Below are positions 1-6,133 of a stretch of DNA of 6,133 bases, piece after piece. The stretch is from Nitrospinota bacterium (GTDB lineage: Bacteria; Tectomicrobia; Entotheonellia; J063): positions 1 to 6,133 of the forward strand of contig RFHZ01000894.1 of the NCBI GenBank assembly GCA_003696125.1. The letters are read 5' to 3'. The notes beneath the pieces are model-generated. The model did no database searches. It was not told the DNA's origin and was given only the letters and a program-made list of their open reading frames with translations. Both the position numbers and the translations under genes were made by a program. Each line of letters begins with the position of its first letter. Position 1 is the stretch's first letter.

Positions 1-552
1 GACCTGGCCATAGATCTCCTGCTCAAACGGGTGATCTTTGCCGACTTTGCCGGGGTAAGCGCCCAGGAGGTGGAAGACTACTACCGCACGCATCGAGAGA
101 AGTTTACCGAACCAGAAGCGGTCCAGGTCAGCATCATCCCAGCCGAAACCGAGGAGATGGCCCAGAAGGCAGTGGCAGCATTACAGACGGGCGAGGATGC
201 CATCACGCTTCCGGGAGAGCGCCAGATGACCCTATCGGCAAGAAGGGGATGGATCAAAAGGGGAGAGGTCGATCCTGCCCTGGAGGAAGTGGCCTTCTCC
301 TTACCAGAGGGCGAGATCGGTACGGTCAAGGTCCCGCTCGGCTACTACGTGGTTCGGGTAGAGGAGAAGAGGGCCAAACGGCAGAAACTGTTCCGGGAAG
401 TCAGAGAAGAGGCACGACGGGCCGCCTTGCAGCAGAAGTACCGGGATGTGTTGAAACAGTGGATCACAAAGCTACGGGAACGATCGTCGGTGCAGGTCGA
501 TGAGGCCATGATCGAACAGGCGATCGCCGCCTATGAGGCATCTATACGCTAG
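1..552 (+). CDS. SurA/PpiC-like peptidyl-prolyl isomerase-type chaperone, C-terminal part (5' end outside window)
   Basis: The frame is open from base 1, so the gene starts upstream; a GTG at 31 is in frame but lies inside a helix and is unlikely to be the start. 183 residues are visible. Visible residues about 20-36 (VSAQEVEDYYRTHREKFTEP) are the helix that precedes parvulin domains in the SurA/PpiC family. A shortened parvulin-like fold follows at about 38-123, with the recognisable segments RRGWIKRGEVDPALEEVAF, LPEGEIGTVKVPLGYY and VVRVEEKRAKR. A charged C-terminal helix pair (about 125-182) follows, as in the SurA-type chaperone domain. The two histidines typical of active parvulins are replaced: the HIL(V) position reads VSII and the GYHII position reads GYYVV. 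It may therefore act as a periplasmic chaperone rather than a catalyst (inference). It ends 33 nt before the 26-heme cytochrome on the same strand, which suggests a role in folding exported cytochromes. Family call good; activity uncertain. Confidence 0.8.
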   Translation, partial: DLAIDLLLKRVIFADFAGVSAQEVEDYYRTHREKFTEPEAVQVSIIPAETEEMAQKAVAALQTGEDAITLPGERQMTLSARRGWIKRGEVDPALEEVAFSLPEGEIGTVKVPLGYYVVRVEEKRAKRQKLFREVREEARRAALQQKYRDVLKQWITKLRERSSVQVDEAMIEQAIAAYEASIR

Positions 553-585: not shown

Positions 586-2559
586 GTGAAGCGTAACCTG
601 TTCTGCATCATTTCGATTCTGTTCGGCATAGCGCTCTTCTCTGTGCTCTCCTCCTGTACCCCTCCTCCCCGGAAACGGCCGGCTCGCTTTACTCCCAAGG
701 CGTGTGTAGAATGCCATGTCCAGGAGCAGAAGGCTTTTGCAGCGGCAAAGGTGGTTCACGCTCCGGTCAAGGCGGGAAAATGCGAGGAGTGCCATCAGCG
801 ACACGGCCTGGTAGGAGCCGTTATCCTGACCGAGAACAGTGCCCGGCTCTGCTACACCTGCCATGAGGAGCAGAAGACGCGTTTTGCCCAGGGAAAACCC
901 CATACCGCCCTTGTCGATGCAGGCGGGCAGGGGGTGAGCTGTACCCGCTGTCACGATCCTCATGCCGCAGAGCAAAAAGGACTGCTCAAAAAGACGGGAA
1001 ATGCCCTCTGTTTCTCCTGTCATGAGCCGGCGCTATTTACCCAGGGAGAGACACATATCCCTTCCACCGAGGACTGCCAGACCTGTCACGATCCCCATGC
1101 CTCCTCTGAACCGGACGTGCTGGTGCGCCCGGTGAGGGAGCTCTGCCGGGAATGTCATGACCTGCAGGACCCGCAGCTCCGCCAATCCCATGGGGGCTAT
1201 CCTGTACAGGAGACGAACTGTACAGGCTGCCATACGCCCCATGCTTCGACCGGGCCCAAGCTGATCCGCAAGCATGCCCATCCCCCCATGACCCAGATGG
1301 GGTGTGACAACTGTCACCTCGATCCGCAATCCTCTACTCCCTTCCAGACGGTGGCCAGGACCCCAGACCTCTGTCTCTCCTGTCACCAGGAACCGGGAGA
1401 GGGAGGGAAAGAGGAGGTCATCCATGCTCCTTTCCAGACCGGGGATTGTCTCCTCTGTCACGACCCGCATGCCACAGATTTCCCCGGCCAGTTGGTTTCC
1501 CAGGAAAAGACGATGTGCCTGTCCTGTCATGCTGATCTGGAGAAAGAGGGGGACGTCCCCCACCCACCGGCAGCAGAGAGATGTACCACCTGTCACAACC
1601 CGCACGCCTCTTCGCAAGGCTCTCTCCTGCGCAGGGCAGAGGGGGAACTCTGCCTCTCCTGCCACAAGGATACCGGCGCAGAGCTTGAATACCGCAACCT
1701 CCATCCCCCCTTTGCCGGCCAGGAGTGTACCGCCTGCCATGACCCGCACGGGGGCAAAGACAAGACCTTCCTGGTCTCCTCCTTCCCGGCACTCTGCTAC
1801 TCCTGTCACCAGGATAAGGAGGAAGAGTTTACCCGGGTCACCATCCATCAACCGGTGGCAGCAGGCGAGTGCAAGCGCTGTCATCTCCCCCATGCCAGCC
1901 AGGCAGAGTCTCTGCTGGTCTCAGAACCAGAAACCCTCTGCTTCACCTGTCATGCTGGCATGCGCAGCCGGAGCCAAGAGGAGACTGCTCACCCGCCCTT
2001 CCAGGAGGGGGAATGCCGTCTCTGCCACCTCCCCCATGCCAGCGATACCCCGCGACTGGTTACCGCCACCGGTACCTCCCTCTGCCTGGATTGCCATGGG
2101 GACCTCCTCCAGGGGGAGAGCATGCAGAGTGTCCATGCGCCGGTAAAGCAAGACTGCACCGCCTGTCATGATCCCCACGAGAGCCCGGTAGGGGCACAGC
2201 TCAAGCAGAGAGAACAGGAACTCTGCCTCTCCTGTCATGCCTCCCTGGCCGGTCGCATGAAGCAGCCGGGTGCGCTGGTGCATGCCCCGGCAGCCCAGGG
2301 CGAGTGTACCGTCTGCCATCAACCCCATGAGTCACCAGAACCTCATCTCCTCCAGGCCTCTCTGAGCGAGCTCTGCGCGATGTGTCACGATGAAACCGAA
2401 CCTCAGGCCGTAAAAGCCCATGGAGGATTTCAGGTGCAGGATACCCTCTGTACCAGTTGCCACACCCCCCATGTCGCCCAGGAGGAAAAAGGAGGCCTCT
2501 TTCATCCGGTTGTCCACAAACCATTTGCAGGAAAGGTATGCGAGGCGTGTCACAAATGA
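586..2559 (+). CDS. 26-heme doubled-CXXCH c-type cytochrome, lipoprotein
   Basis: The 657-residue product has a lipoprotein signal peptide: an MKR start, a hydrophobic core and the lipobox LSSC with the lipidated Cys at residue 24. Threonine at +2 gives no inner-membrane retention signal, so the outer membrane is the likely site. The rest is a chain of 26 CXXCH motifs from residue 40 to the penultimate residue. They mostly come as pairs: an LCxxCH heme, then H-x-P-(F/V)-xxG-x-CxxCH-x-PHAS, as in Paired_CXXCH_1 proteins. I count 29 histidines outside the CXXCH motifs, enough for bis-His ligation of every heme. There is no catalytic domain, so an electron conduit or store is likely (inference). 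The start is GTG with GGGAG at 573-577, 8 nt upstream. No ATG lies between the previous stop and this signal peptide. It is probably cotranscribed with the PPIase-like gene upstream and the 16-heme gene downstream. Pairing order: 3 pairs + triad (hemes 7-9), then 7 pairs + triad (24-26). Confidence 0.93.
   Translation: MKRNLFCIISILFGIALFSVLSSCTPPPRKRPARFTPKACVECHVQEQKAFAAAKVVHAPVKAGKCEECHQRHGLVGAVILTENSARLCYTCHEEQKTRFAQGKPHTALVDAGGQGVSCTRCHDPHAAEQKGLLKKTGNALCFSCHEPALFTQGETHIPSTEDCQTCHDPHASSEPDVLVRPVRELCRECHDLQDPQLRQSHGGYPVQETNCTGCHTPHASTGPKLIRKHAHPPMTQMGCDNCHLDPQSSTPFQTVARTPDLCLSCHQEPGEGGKEEVIHAPFQTGDCLLCHDPHATDFPGQLVSQEKTMCLSCHADLEKEGDVPHPPAAERCTTCHNPHASSQGSLLRRAEGELCLSCHKDTGAELEYRNLHPPFAGQECTACHDPHGGKDKTFLVSSFPALCYSCHQDKEEEFTRVTIHQPVAAGECKRCHLPHASQAESLLVSEPETLCFTCHAGMRSRSQEETAHPPFQEGECRLCHLPHASDTPRLVTATGTSLCLDCHGDLLQGESMQSVHAPVKQDCTACHDPHESPVGAQLKQREQELCLSCHASLAGRMKQPGALVHAPAAQGECTVCHQPHESPEPHLLQASLSELCAMCHDETEPQAVKAHGGFQVQDTLCTSCHTPHVAQEEKGGLFHPVVHKPFAGKVCEACHK
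703..1317 (+). repeat. 9-heme module of the 26-heme protein (hemes 1-9)
   Basis: Residues 40-244 carry three heme pairs and then a three-heme block at 187-244. In the block, CRECH is followed by SHGGYPV, CTGCHTPHAS, a HAHPP segment and CDNCH. The last heme lacks the usual x-P-H after it and is followed by a proline-rich linker without histidine. The same order, length and block end recur in the 16-heme protein (2727-3329), so this is a shared structural module. Confidence 0.7.
2374..2553 (+). repeat. second copy of the three-heme block (hemes 24-26)
   Basis: Residues 597-656 repeat the plan of residues 187-244: CAMCH, then AHGGFQV, CTSCHTPHV, a double-His segment (FHPVVHKPFAG) and CEACH, followed by one lysine and the stop. 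The HGG(F/Y)xVQ(D/E)T signature is found only in these two places in this protein, and a diverged form (AHGRFAVQ) in the 16-heme neighbour. Confidence 0.65.
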
Positions 2560-2609: not shown

Positions 2610-3863
2610 ATGAAACGCACCTGCCTTATCCTACTCTGCGGATTACTCTTCTGGGGGACAGGCCTATTTCTGGGACCGGGTACGGGATGGGGAGCGGTTA
2701 AACTCAAGGCGCAGGGAGCAGCCCTCTGCCTCATGTGCCATGCCGATCTCAAGGAGAAGCTCGCCCAACCCCATGTGCACACGCCGGTCAAGCAGGGGAA
2801 CTGCCAGGGTTGTCATAACCCGCATACGGCGAAATTCCCGAAGCTTCTGTCCCGGACAGGGACCGAACTCTGCTATGCGTGCCATCGCCGAGAGGAAAGA
2901 GCCTTTGCCCAACGCAGTGTCCATCGACCGGTCCTGGAGGGGAACTGTACCGCCTGTCACGATCCCCATGCCAGTGGCGAAAAATTCCAACTCGTCCGCG
3001 CAGGGGGAGCGCTCTGCCTGCGCTGTCACCAGGAGCTGAGCCTGAAAGCCAGAAATGTCCTCCATCCCCCTTTTGCCCGGGGGGACTGCCTGCGCTGTCA
3101 CAACCCGCATGCTTCCCCAGAACGTGCGCTGCTGGTGAAGCCGGCCCGGAGCCTCTGCCTGCGCTGCCATAATCCCGCACAGCCCAGGATAAAAAAGGCG
3201 CATGGACGTTTTGCCGTGCAGCAGGCCGCCTGTGAGCAGTGTCATGACCCGCACGGCTCAGACCAGCGGATCCTGGTAAAGGCCGTGGTTCATGCCCCTT
3301 TTGCCCAGGGGAGCTGTGCCGTCTGCCACCAGGTCTCTGGCCCAGACCCCAGGAGGACAATCCTGCAAGGGAAGGAACTCTGTCTCACCTGCCACACCCG
3401 CATGGCCCGGCAGATGGAAAAGAGCCATCTCCATCCCCCGGTGGCTGAAGGACGATGCACCACCTGTCACAATCCCCACGCTTCAGACGTCCAGGGGCTC
3501 CTGGTCGAGAAGGAGTGGAACCTCTGCCTCTCCTGTCATAGCGAGGTGGCGGAACGGCTGAAGGACTCCCCCTTTCACCATCCCCAAAAGGCGGGAAACG
3601 GCCGCTGTACCATCTGCCATAACCCTCATGGCTCTGAACAATCTTTTCTCTTTGCCGATGCCCCCCTCCAGGTCTGTGGAACCTGTCACAAAAGGCATGT
3701 CACCCTTTCCCATCCCATGGGCGAGGGGATCAACGATCCCCGCACCGGTGAGACCCTGACCTGTCTCTCCTGTCACGATCCCAAGGGGACAGACATCCCC
3801 TACTTCCTCCGCTTTCCCAAAGAGCGGGAACTCTGTATCCAGTGCCACAAGCAGTTGCGGTAG
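2610..3863 (+). CDS. 16-heme doubled-CXXCH c-type cytochrome, exported
   Basis: The 417-residue product has a Sec signal peptide: MKR start, hydrophobic core LILLCGLLFWGTGLFLG and likely cleavage after the Ala of GWGA at residue 29. It then has 16 CXXCH motifs between residues 40 and 413. Cys10 sits too early in the hydrophobic core for a convincing lipobox, so a soluble periplasmic or secreted protein is preferred. The frame is open back to an ATG at 2457, but that stretch overlaps the upstream gene out of frame and has no cytochrome features. The ATG at 2610 sits directly before the signal peptide, with AGGAAAGGGG about 11 nt upstream. Hemes 1-9 follow the same plan as in the 26-heme neighbour. 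Hemes 10-13 are ordinary pairs. Hemes 14-16 use a longer linker (CGTCH, LSHPMGEG, CLSCHDPKG, CIQCH), and heme 15 lacks the usual PH. I count 18 non-CXXCH histidines for 16 hemes. Likely a paralogue of the upstream cytochrome. Confidence 0.92.
   Translation: MKRTCLILLCGLLFWGTGLFLGPGTGWGAVKLKAQGAALCLMCHADLKEKLAQPHVHTPVKQGNCQGCHNPHTAKFPKLLSRTGTELCYACHRREERAFAQRSVHRPVLEGNCTACHDPHASGEKFQLVRAGGALCLRCHQELSLKARNVLHPPFARGDCLRCHNPHASPERALLVKPARSLCLRCHNPAQPRIKKAHGRFAVQQAACEQCHDPHGSDQRILVKAVVHAPFAQGSCAVCHQVSGPDPRRTILQGKELCLTCHTRMARQMEKSHLHPPVAEGRCTTCHNPHASDVQGLLVEKEWNLCLSCHSEVAERLKDSPFHHPQKAGNGRCTICHNPHGSEQSFLFADAPLQVCGTCHKRHVTLSHPMGEGINDPRTGETLTCLSCHDPKGTDIPYFLRFPKERELCIQCHKQLR
2727..3329 (+). repeat. 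9-heme module of the 16-heme protein (hemes 1-9)
   Basis: Residues 40-240 hold three heme pairs and a triad at 183-240: CLRCH, AHGRFAVQ, CEQCHDPHG, VVHAPFAQG and CAVCH, then a linker without histidine (SGPDPRRT). The module starts at the same residue number (40) and has nearly the same length (201 against 205) as its counterpart in the 26-heme protein. Confidence 0.7.
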
Positions 3864-4069: not shown

Positions 4070-5119
4070 TTGTCCCCCAGGCTCCGGTGTTGCGTGCTGT
4101 TCTTTGTCCTGGCTGCTCTGGGAGTATCCTTTCCTCCACGGCCGATGGTGGCCGAGGGGGCAGAACGAGGTGGAGAGGTGCTCTATCTTGAGCCGATACG
4201 CCTCGTCTACCGCCAGGTGGAAGGGATCTATCTGAAGAATCCCTGCGGAGTCTTTGTCGATCCGGGGCGGGAAGAGGTCTATGTGGCTGACACCATGAAC
4301 GATCTGGTGGCAGTCTACGACCGGGACGGGGTTCCGCTCTTCGCCTTTGGGTATAACGGAGAGTTTAAGGAGCCGGTAAAGGCGGTTGCCGATCCGCAAG
4401 GTCGTATCTATGTCCTGACCAAAACCGGCAGGGCCATCAAGGTCTTTAACTACCGGGGAGAGTACCAGCAGGACTTCCCCTTCCCAGGCGTAGAGACCGC
4501 AGTGCTCCCCACGGCACTGACCGTGGACCGGAGAGGATACCTCTACATTGCTGATGCGAACAGTGGCCAGATACTGGTCTACGATCCGGAATACCGCTTG
4601 CAGTTGCGCTTCGGCAAGAAAGGGAATGGCCGCGGTCGTTTCATGAGGGTGCAGGCCATAGCCGTAGACCGGGAAGGGGAGATCTACGTTGTGGACGCCA
4701 GGGGGGTTCCTGTGCAGGTCTTCAGTCCCCAGGGAGAATTCCTGCGGGCATGGGGAGAGCATGCGGCGGGCCCCCAGAACTTCTCCTTCCCCAGTGGAAT
4801 AACCATAGATCAGGAGGGCCGGGTCATCATCGCCGACACCCTGCGGCAAACGATCCAGGTCTTCAGCAAAGAGGGGCAATTCCTCGGCCGGTACGGCGGT
4901 CTGGGTTCTCAGCCGGGAGCGGTCGCCTTTCCCATGGATGTGGCCGCGGATGGAGATGGGAGGATCTACGTGGTAGAACGGGTAGGAAGCAGGCTCCAGA
5001 TCATGCAGCAGCGCCTGGTGAACGGGAAAAGGGCGATGAAGAATGCCATCGATCCCGAACGCATCAGGCGAGAACTCCGGCGTTCCATCTCTGCCCTCGT
5101 GTGGAACATCCCGAGGTGA
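4070..5119 (+). CDS. exported NHL-repeat six-bladed beta-propeller protein
   Basis: 349 residues from a TTG start set by the Shine-Dalgarno at 4055-4065. The N-terminus is a signal peptide: RLR, then hydrophobic VLFFVLAALGVSF, with probable cleavage near VAEGA (residues 27-31). Six NHL repeats follow, each with the family pattern of P-x-x(V/I)-x-V-D-x-x-G-x-(I/L)-Y-V-A-D and V-x-V-F/Y-x-x-x-G. They lie at about residues 56-94, 99-138, 146-183, 191-230, 238-276 and 286-316. Together they can close a six-bladed propeller. The basic tail (317-349, with ERIRRELRRS) is helical in character. There are no CXXCH motifs and no catalytic motif is recognised. NHL proteins act as protein-binding platforms. 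As I recall, an NHL gene also neighbours omcS in Geobacter, so a role in placing or assembling the next gene's cytochrome is plausible (inference). The gap to that gene is 58 nt, consistent with an operon. Confidence 0.88.
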   Translation: MSPRLRCCVLFFVLAALGVSFPPRPMVAEGAERGGEVLYLEPIRLVYRQVEGIYLKNPCGVFVDPGREEVYVADTMNDLVAVYDRDGVPLFAFGYNGEFKEPVKAVADPQGRIYVLTKTGRAIKVFNYRGEYQQDFPFPGVETAVLPTALTVDRRGYLYIADANSGQILVYDPEYRLQLRFGKKGNGRGRFMRVQAIAVDREGEIYVVDARGVPVQVFSPQGEFLRAWGEHAAGPQNFSFPSGITIDQEGRVIIADTLRQTIQVFSKEGQFLGRYGGLGSQPGAVAFPMDVAADGDGRIYVVERVGSRLQIMQQRLVNGKRAMKNAIDPERIRRELRRSISALVWNIPR

Positions 5120-5161: not shown

Positions 5162-5170
5162 AAAGGAGGG
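5162..5170 (+). promoter_or_regulatory. Shine-Dalgarno of the OmcS-like cytochrome
   Basis: AAAGGAGGG with the GGAGG core (5165-5169) 8 nt before the ATG at 5178. It fixes the start of the edge-truncated gene and predicts strong translation. Confidence 0.8.
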
Positions 5171-5177
5171 AACCAAA

Positions 5178-6133
5178 ATGCAAAGGGTTGTGTTCATTCT
5201 TGCCGTGTCCATGGTGTTGATCTTCTTCTGGACCGGCTTGGGAATGGCCGGGGATTATCATGTCGGGTCGCAATTAATCTGTTCGGATTGTCATACCATG
5301 CATGCCAGTGCCCAGCACAAATATGACGGTTCCGCAGGGAGTCCCTGGACCCTGGGGGGGAGTGCTCCCTATAACTACCTGCTCATCGATACCGGCAACA
5401 ATGTCTGCCTGAGCTGCCATGATGGAGGTAGTGAGTCGGGAGACACTGCCCCGGACGTGCGGGGAGCCCATAGTGGTAGCCATGTCCGACAGGCAGGGAT
5501 GTTGACCACCGGCTCCTCTCCTTATGAGGACTACAAGGGGCATACGCTGGGATCGACCGCTACGGCTCCTGGTGGCACCTGGTCTGATGCCAACGGATTG
5601 AGCTGTGCCGACTGTCACGAGCCACACGGGATTGCGTCCCAGTATCGCAACCTGAAGCTCCGACCCGGCAATGCCAGCAGCGATCTTACCATCACTTACG
5701 CCAACGGCGCGTTTGATAACACCAAGGATGTGACCCAGACGGCGACCACACCCACGGCGACGCAGTACTCTTACAACAACATCACCTTTGGGGAACCGGA
5801 TACCACCGCTTCCGCGTATGCCAACTGGTGTAAGGGATGCCACACCAACTTCCACGGTACCACCGGCGGTGCAGAGGTTGGTGGTCAGAGCGGTGGGGAC
5901 AACGGGACTCCCTGGAAGCGGCACCCGCAGGCGGACGTCAATATCGGGGCCAACAGCGACAACCACAGCGACTACACGAGCTGGTGGGGTTCCACCACAG
6001 AGAACTTCATCAAGAATGGTCGCCTCCAGGTGTTAAGCGCCTCGGGAACCATCCCGGCCGCGGATAACACCCCATCCTGTATGTCCTGTCACCGGGCTCA
6101 CGGCTCGGTAAACCCCTTCGGGCTGATCTATAC
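5178..6133 (+). CDS. OmcS-like multiheme cytochrome, probable extracellular nanowire subunit (3' end outside window)
   Basis: The frame stays open from the ATG to the window edge: 318 residues and an incomplete codon. A signal peptide (MQRVVF, hydrophobic core to residue 22, cleavage after GMA at 24) gives a mature protein starting GDYHVG. Five CXXCH motifs are visible: residues 35-39, 77-81, 143-147, 218-222 and 301-305. Landmarks in order are CSDCHTMHAS, CLSCHDGG, KGHTLG, APGGTW, CADCHEPHG, WCKGCHTNFH, a KRHP motif, and CMSCHRAHGS before PFGLIY. From memory, Geobacter OmcS has the same series (CHTMH, CLNCH, GH, APGGT, CxxCHDPHG, EWCANCHTDIH, RHP, CLSCHRAHAS, LAY), then a sixth heme close to its C-terminus. 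A sixth CXXCH just past the edge is therefore predicted. The spacers are rich in S, T, G and N, unlike the repetitive cytochromes upstream. OmcE-like four-heme relatives fit less well, since five hemes are already present. Confidence 0.88.
   Translation, partial: MQRVVFILAVSMVLIFFWTGLGMAGDYHVGSQLICSDCHTMHASAQHKYDGSAGSPWTLGGSAPYNYLLIDTGNNVCLSCHDGGSESGDTAPDVRGAHSGSHVRQAGMLTTGSSPYEDYKGHTLGSTATAPGGTWSDANGLSCADCHEPHGIASQYRNLKLRPGNASSDLTITYANGAFDNTKDVTQTATTPTATQYSYNNITFGEPDTTASAYANWCKGCHTNFHGTTGGAEVGGQSGGDNGTPWKRHPQADVNIGANSDNHSDYTSWWGSTTENFIKNGRLQVLSASGTIPAADNTPSCMSCHRAHGSVNPFGLIY

Follow-up and report, generated by a model that had tools for sequence, protein, structure and literature searches.

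The cytochrome gene that runs off the 3' end of the window (the whole 6,133-nucleotide stretch analyzed here) encodes a protein, OmcS1, which its sequence assigns to the OmcS/OscC family of hexaheme cytochromes. We consider it probable, at about 0.7, that this protein is exported, secreted by osc-type machinery, and polymerized head to tail outside the cell as a heme wire; filament formation itself is judged likely. OmcS1 appears to be a new and credible member of an already known nanowire-cytochrome system, and with it a distant, poorly sampled lineage joins the carriers of an apparently complete OmcS-type nanowire cluster.

The OmcS1 Gene and Its Completion

The window spans contig C300 from end to end; this contig belongs to an assembly of 4.18 Mb (990 contigs, 94.8% complete, 8.0% contaminated). 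As an earlier note on this DNA had described, the OmcS1 frame stays open to the window edge and holds five CXXCH motifs (residues 35, 77, 143, 218, and 301 of the window translation) with no stop codon, and the accessory histidines which that note had named are all present (GH122, PH150, NFH226, RHP249, and RAH308, plus H42 in CHTMH). The N-terminus carries a signal peptide, and the start codon is preceded by the Shine-Dalgarno sequence AAGGAGGG (Table 1).

The prediction that a sixth CXXCH and an early stop would follow was borne out by contig C836, whose reverse complement dovetails with the window end over 92 bases (88/92 identical). One of the four mismatches alters an amino acid, by inspection. 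C836 adds ...TFNDPTNGGQLKIENGDTGTGTATIKATCNKCHKKGI* to OmcS1, in which the sixth CXXCH (CNKCHKKGI) is followed by the stop, and the completed protein has 355 residues, about 330 of them in the mature form. The composite protein has the six CXXCH motifs of the broad OmcS/OscC family, five in the window and the sixth on C836; the many extra hemes or unrelated downstream domain that would have spoken against an OmcS-type protein did not appear.

At the other end of the window, contig C816 overlaps by 140 bases with two mismatches. The joints among C816, C300, and C836 probably reflect strain variation at a single locus, and full-length OmcS1 is accordingly a composite of two contigs, with four mismatches at its joint. 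The C836 end might instead have held a separate fourth paralog, but the dovetail overlaps at both window ends disfavor this reading. The G+C content of the three contigs (0.588–0.593) matches the rest of the assembly, and their tetranucleotide distances (0.183–0.197) compare with 0.138–0.197 for 14 other contigs; since both measures agree with the assembly, binning contamination is unlikely for these contigs. A comparison with plasmids gave no match at E 1e-5, a search for MtrB/PioB gave no match in an assay whose controls gave none either, and a search of the assembly for a 16S gene came back empty.

Table 1. Coordinates of OmcS1 and neighboring features (window positions unless a locus is given).
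Feature	Position	Strand	Basis and remarks
PpiC/SurA-type peptidyl-prolyl isomerase lipoprotein, C-terminal part	1..552	+	Rotamase_2 5e-18 (Pfam); 5' part on contig C816 (L067); oscH counterpart by position
26-heme paired-CXXCH cytochrome with lipobox (MHC_A)	586..2559	+	Pfam 5e-140, heme count, conserved order; oscI (GSU2495) counterpart by position
16-heme paired-CXXCH cytochrome (MHC_B)	2610..3863	+	Pfam 9e-90, heme count, conserved order; oscJ (GSU2494) counterpart by position
NHL-repeat six-bladed beta-propeller, exported	4070..5119	+	Pfam NHL 2.6e-21; synteny
Shine-Dalgarno of OmcS1	5163..5170	+	sequence; strong
OmcS-like hexaheme cytochrome (OmcS1)	5178..6133	+	ATG at 5178; 3' end cut by contig
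OmcS1 hemes 1–5	5280–5294, 5406–5420, 5604–5618, 5829–5843, 6078–6092	+	CXXCH
Codon of H42 (CHTMH) in OmcS1	5301..5303	+	aligned with OmcS His16, the putative inter-subunit ligand
OmcS1 heme 6 and stop	L005:5441–5644 (contig C836)	minus	continuation of frame

Homology to OmcS and Candidate Heme Ligands

With OmcS1 alone as the query, phmmer returned a sole match in the PDB, which was OmcS (E 9e-7). A profile of 28 family members matched OmcS (6ef8) along its length (residues 1–405, E 1.2e-37), and the next best structures were cytochrome c nitrite reductases (1e-8) and OmcE (1.5e-7). In a joint alignment, the heme-attached histidines of OmcS (13, 51, 144, 243, 332, and 404) all align with histidines of OmcS1 as completed with C836, and OmcS His 16, 110, 147, 247, 257, and 335 fall on OmcS1 His 42, 122, 150, 226, 249, and 308. 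OmcS1 has exactly twelve such candidate ligands for six hemes, in the order of OmcS and with the His16 equivalent among them. A failure of H42 and of the RHP and RAH histidines to match OmcS, which the earlier note had held would count against it, was not found, and all three do match. We take His16 to be the ligand that an OmcS subunit supplies to its neighbor, and His 110, 147, 247, 257, and 335 are presumably the remaining distal ligands. In OmcS, 11 of the 12 axial histidines come from the subunit itself and one, that of heme 5, from the neighboring subunit (PMC6584659).

OmcS of Geobacter sulfurreducens (6EF8, 6NEF; GSU2504) and OmcS1 have in common the motifs CHTMH, GHN/GHT, CHxPHG, RHP, and CHRAH, while their identity is about 28% over aligned positions (79/281). 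They differ in mature length (407 residues in OmcS and about 330 in OmcS1) and belong to separate clades; moreover, OmcS forms electrical filaments in Geobacter, and a filament of OmcS1 is a prediction. OmcS1 would be a shorter natural subunit for six hemes, its conservation limited to the ligand histidines and a small core, and this makes it useful for asking what a heme wire minimally needs.

The AlphaFold model of window-truncated OmcS1 had a pLDDT of 45.6 and was set aside. That of a full-length Armatimonadetes relative (54% identical; 81 sequences) reached a pLDDT of 60.9 and a pTM of 0.63. When this model of low-to-middling confidence was compared with four chains by VIA-align, OmcS ranked first (Z 8.1, 240 residues); Foldseek found no significant match for the same model in the PDB. 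Taken together, the structural comparisons lend limited support to an OmcS-like fold. OmcE of G. sulfurreducens (7TFS) resembles OmcS in using a histidine of the neighboring subunit (PMC9473688), but it has four hemes, its match to the family profile is weak, and its Z was only 2.9.

Weight of the CHTMH Motif

Polymerization had been suggested from H42. To weigh this residue, family members were chosen with a profile that omits heme 1, and heme 1 was then inspected. All 81 members tested have a histidine at position +3 of the heme 1 CXXCH, among them all 27 (27/27) that lack the search motif CSDCHTMH, and this conservation indicates that the residue is constrained. Of the 1175 CXXCH sites in the large multiheme cytochromes encoded at these loci, 514 (44%) also have a +3 histidine, and in the 26-heme and 16-heme neighbors of OmcS1 it occurs at roughly every second heme. 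Because it is so common, CHTMH by itself says little on polymerization, and we rejected the motif alone as a filament marker. What stands of the suggestion is that H42 is present and aligned with His16; the step from the motif to a polymer does not hold, given the background and the presence of the motif throughout a family most of whose members were never shown to polymerize. The complete histidine set together with the gene context is stronger evidence than CHTMH.

The Surrounding Gene Cluster

When the three contigs are joined, the gene order is beta-barrel, CsgG-like lipoprotein, second CsgG-like protein, PpiC/SurA lipoprotein, 26-heme cytochrome, 16-heme cytochrome, NHL propeller, OmcS1, OmcS2 (seven hemes), OmcS3 (six hemes), YncE propeller (a lipoprotein), and 9-heme cytochrome. 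The locus holds OmcS-like, CsgG-like, PpiC, 26-heme, and 16-heme genes together, and by this content it is a cluster of the osc (OmcS companion) kind; it looks like a complete copy of a nanowire-assembly cluster.

According to PMC13194489, the osc operon of G. sulfurreducens is proposed to serve the folding (OscH), secretion (OscE-G), and morphology (OscD) of OmcS; the same paper names GSU2495 as oscI and GSU2494 as oscJ, and we assigned the single osc letters at the window locus by position and from that source. PMC12977616 connects the genes GSU2500-2493 with the maturation and secretion of nanowires. As described in PMC13194489 and PMC12977616, the osc operon (Shen et al., 2025) shares with the window cluster the tandem OmcS-like genes, the lipoproteins, the 26-heme and 16-heme cytochromes, and PpiC. 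It differs in that its assembly block lies downstream of the OmcS-like genes, whereas ours lies upstream; in the window cluster, one paralog has seven hemes, and the joined contigs showed no spermidine-synthase-like gene.

The run from barrel, CsgG, CsgG, and PpiC through the 26-heme, 16-heme, and (in some cases) NHL genes to the OmcS-like genes is kept, in large part or entirely, in loci of Nitrospirota, Deferribacterota, Desulfobacterota, and Myxococcota. The tandem subunits thus keep the same company across phyla, namely CsgG-like proteins, the isomerase, and the 26-heme and 16-heme cytochromes. The link between this gene set and OmcS was tested directly in genome G046, where nearly the same genes surround a pair of proteins with 56% and 54% identity to OmcS along its whole length: they are flanked by genes for NHL, YncE, barrel, CsgG1, CsgG2, PpiC, 26-heme, and 15-heme proteins, and the NHL gene is directly upstream of the OmcS-like genes, as it is here. 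The closest relatives of OmcS1 are the tandem hexaheme genes of Armatimonadetes (L006, L008, L009/L010; 44–52% identity), which form pairs in the same clade. Several of these loci resemble the window cluster in an adjoining propeller and 8–9-heme cytochrome, while the flanks examined are without most of the CsgG/PpiC/26-heme block, the exceptions being a CsgG-like gene (L006/L007) and multiheme and NHL genes (L008).

The CsgG-like genes lie at L067:1113–1670 and 1636–2778, and others are found in L012, L014, L022, L026, and L029–L031, across phyla. Their recurrence in the cluster makes an exit route for cytochromes like that of curli conceivable, CsgG being the curli secretion-channel family. 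The lipobox of the 26-heme cytochrome reads LSSC, which suggests an outer-membrane-anchored electron feeder. The loci examined contain 22 open reading frames with exactly 26 hemes.

Place of OmcS1 in the Family

Two trees were built, of 83 and 61 rows. In both, OmcS1 groups with Armatimonadota sequences and with OmcS3 of its own genome (100/97 in the second tree). In the second tree, OmcS and its 54–60% relatives form a clade of their own (100/100), and Desulfobacterota/Nitrospirota sequences form a further separate clade. The split of the larger group of OmcS1 from the others had a support of 94/92 in the second tree, just under the strict mark. By this placement OmcS1 is a family member and not an ortholog of OmcS (GSU2504). 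The OmcS-type identity first proposed accordingly holds for the hexaheme family, the ligand order, and the osc-type cluster, and fails for strict orthology. We know of no filament from the clade of OmcS1.

Carriers of the family made up 11 of 193 genomes (about 6%) in a broad sample, and the host's class was represented by four further genomes, in which the family was not found. A gain by transfer and a loss elsewhere would both be compatible with this patchy presence. No function is assigned to the G. sulfurreducens paralogs OmcT, OmcJ, and GSU2501 (PMC12977616).

A Putative Heme Wire and Competing Readings

We propose that OmcS1 is exported over the inner membrane by a presumed route and loaded with six hemes, and that the adjoining PpiC/SurA isomerase would help it fold. 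The osc-type secretion genes (beta-barrel and CsgG-like) would pass it over the outer membrane, and outside the cell its subunits may join head to tail to build a heme wire. Each heme of this wire would have two histidine ligands, eleven histidines serving their own subunit and H42 reaching heme 5 of the neighbor, as is assumed for His16 of OmcS. The 26-heme and 16-heme cytochromes of the cluster might feed electrons to the wire, in which they would flow along the stacked hemes. Against the wire stand the position of OmcS1 outside the clade of OmcS proper and in a clade from which we know of no filament, the lack of an assigned function for the G. sulfurreducens paralogs, the commonness of +3 histidines, the low-to-middling confidence of the AlphaFold models with no significant Foldseek match, and the composite nature of the full-length protein. 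Cytochrome filaments as a physiological conduit are themselves disputed (PMC11077965, PMC11021709).

It is unlikely that OmcS1 instead corresponds to OscC (GSU2501) or to some other member that forms no filament, being a secreted or periplasmic hexaheme protein which serves the osc machinery, or which caps or initiates filaments, and leaves the wire to a downstream paralog. Three OmcS-like genes in tandem would fit such a division of labor, as would the position of OmcS1 outside the OmcS clade, but OmcS1 lies outside the other large clade too and keeps every candidate ligand histidine of OmcS, His16 included. The tandem pairs of Armatimonadetes also argue against it, both members being in the clade of OmcS1; if those loci make a wire at all, a member of this clade would have to form it. 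Less probable still is that OmcS1 stays a monomer outside the cell, acting as a hexaheme reductase or electron carrier whose H42 binds a heme in cis, without any polymer being formed. Many paired-CXXCH proteins are non-filament, and the 44% background of +3 histidines would suit a ligand in cis, yet the family profile singles out OmcS (1e-37, where the nitrite reductases reach 1e-8), there are exactly twelve conserved histidines for the six hemes, just as OmcS has, and the gene lies within an osc-type assembly cluster.

Within the head-to-tail wire that we prefer, we suggest more tentatively that OmcS1 is the subunit of a third, shorter nanowire clade outside the OmcS of Geobacter, and that one osc machine serves three tandem subunits, one of them with seven hemes, so as to make several wire types or a mixed wire. 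This extension is possible but somewhat doubtful.

Possible Ligand Variants in Related Loci

A clade of seven-heme OmcS-like proteins (L005:4281–5321 on the minus strand, L015, L017, and L037) has one more CXXCH, located between hemes 2 and 3. In this clade CHH stands in place of the histidine that follows heme 4, and 14 histidines are fully conserved, by inspection; these would provide two ligands for each of seven hemes, provided that the N-terminal YH and CHH histidines are ligands. In the clade represented by L026, L038, L043, and other loci of Desulfobacterota, Nitrospirota, and Myxococcota, heme 3 often occurs without CHxPH and with a distal HH pair, which suggests a different ligand arrangement for this heme.
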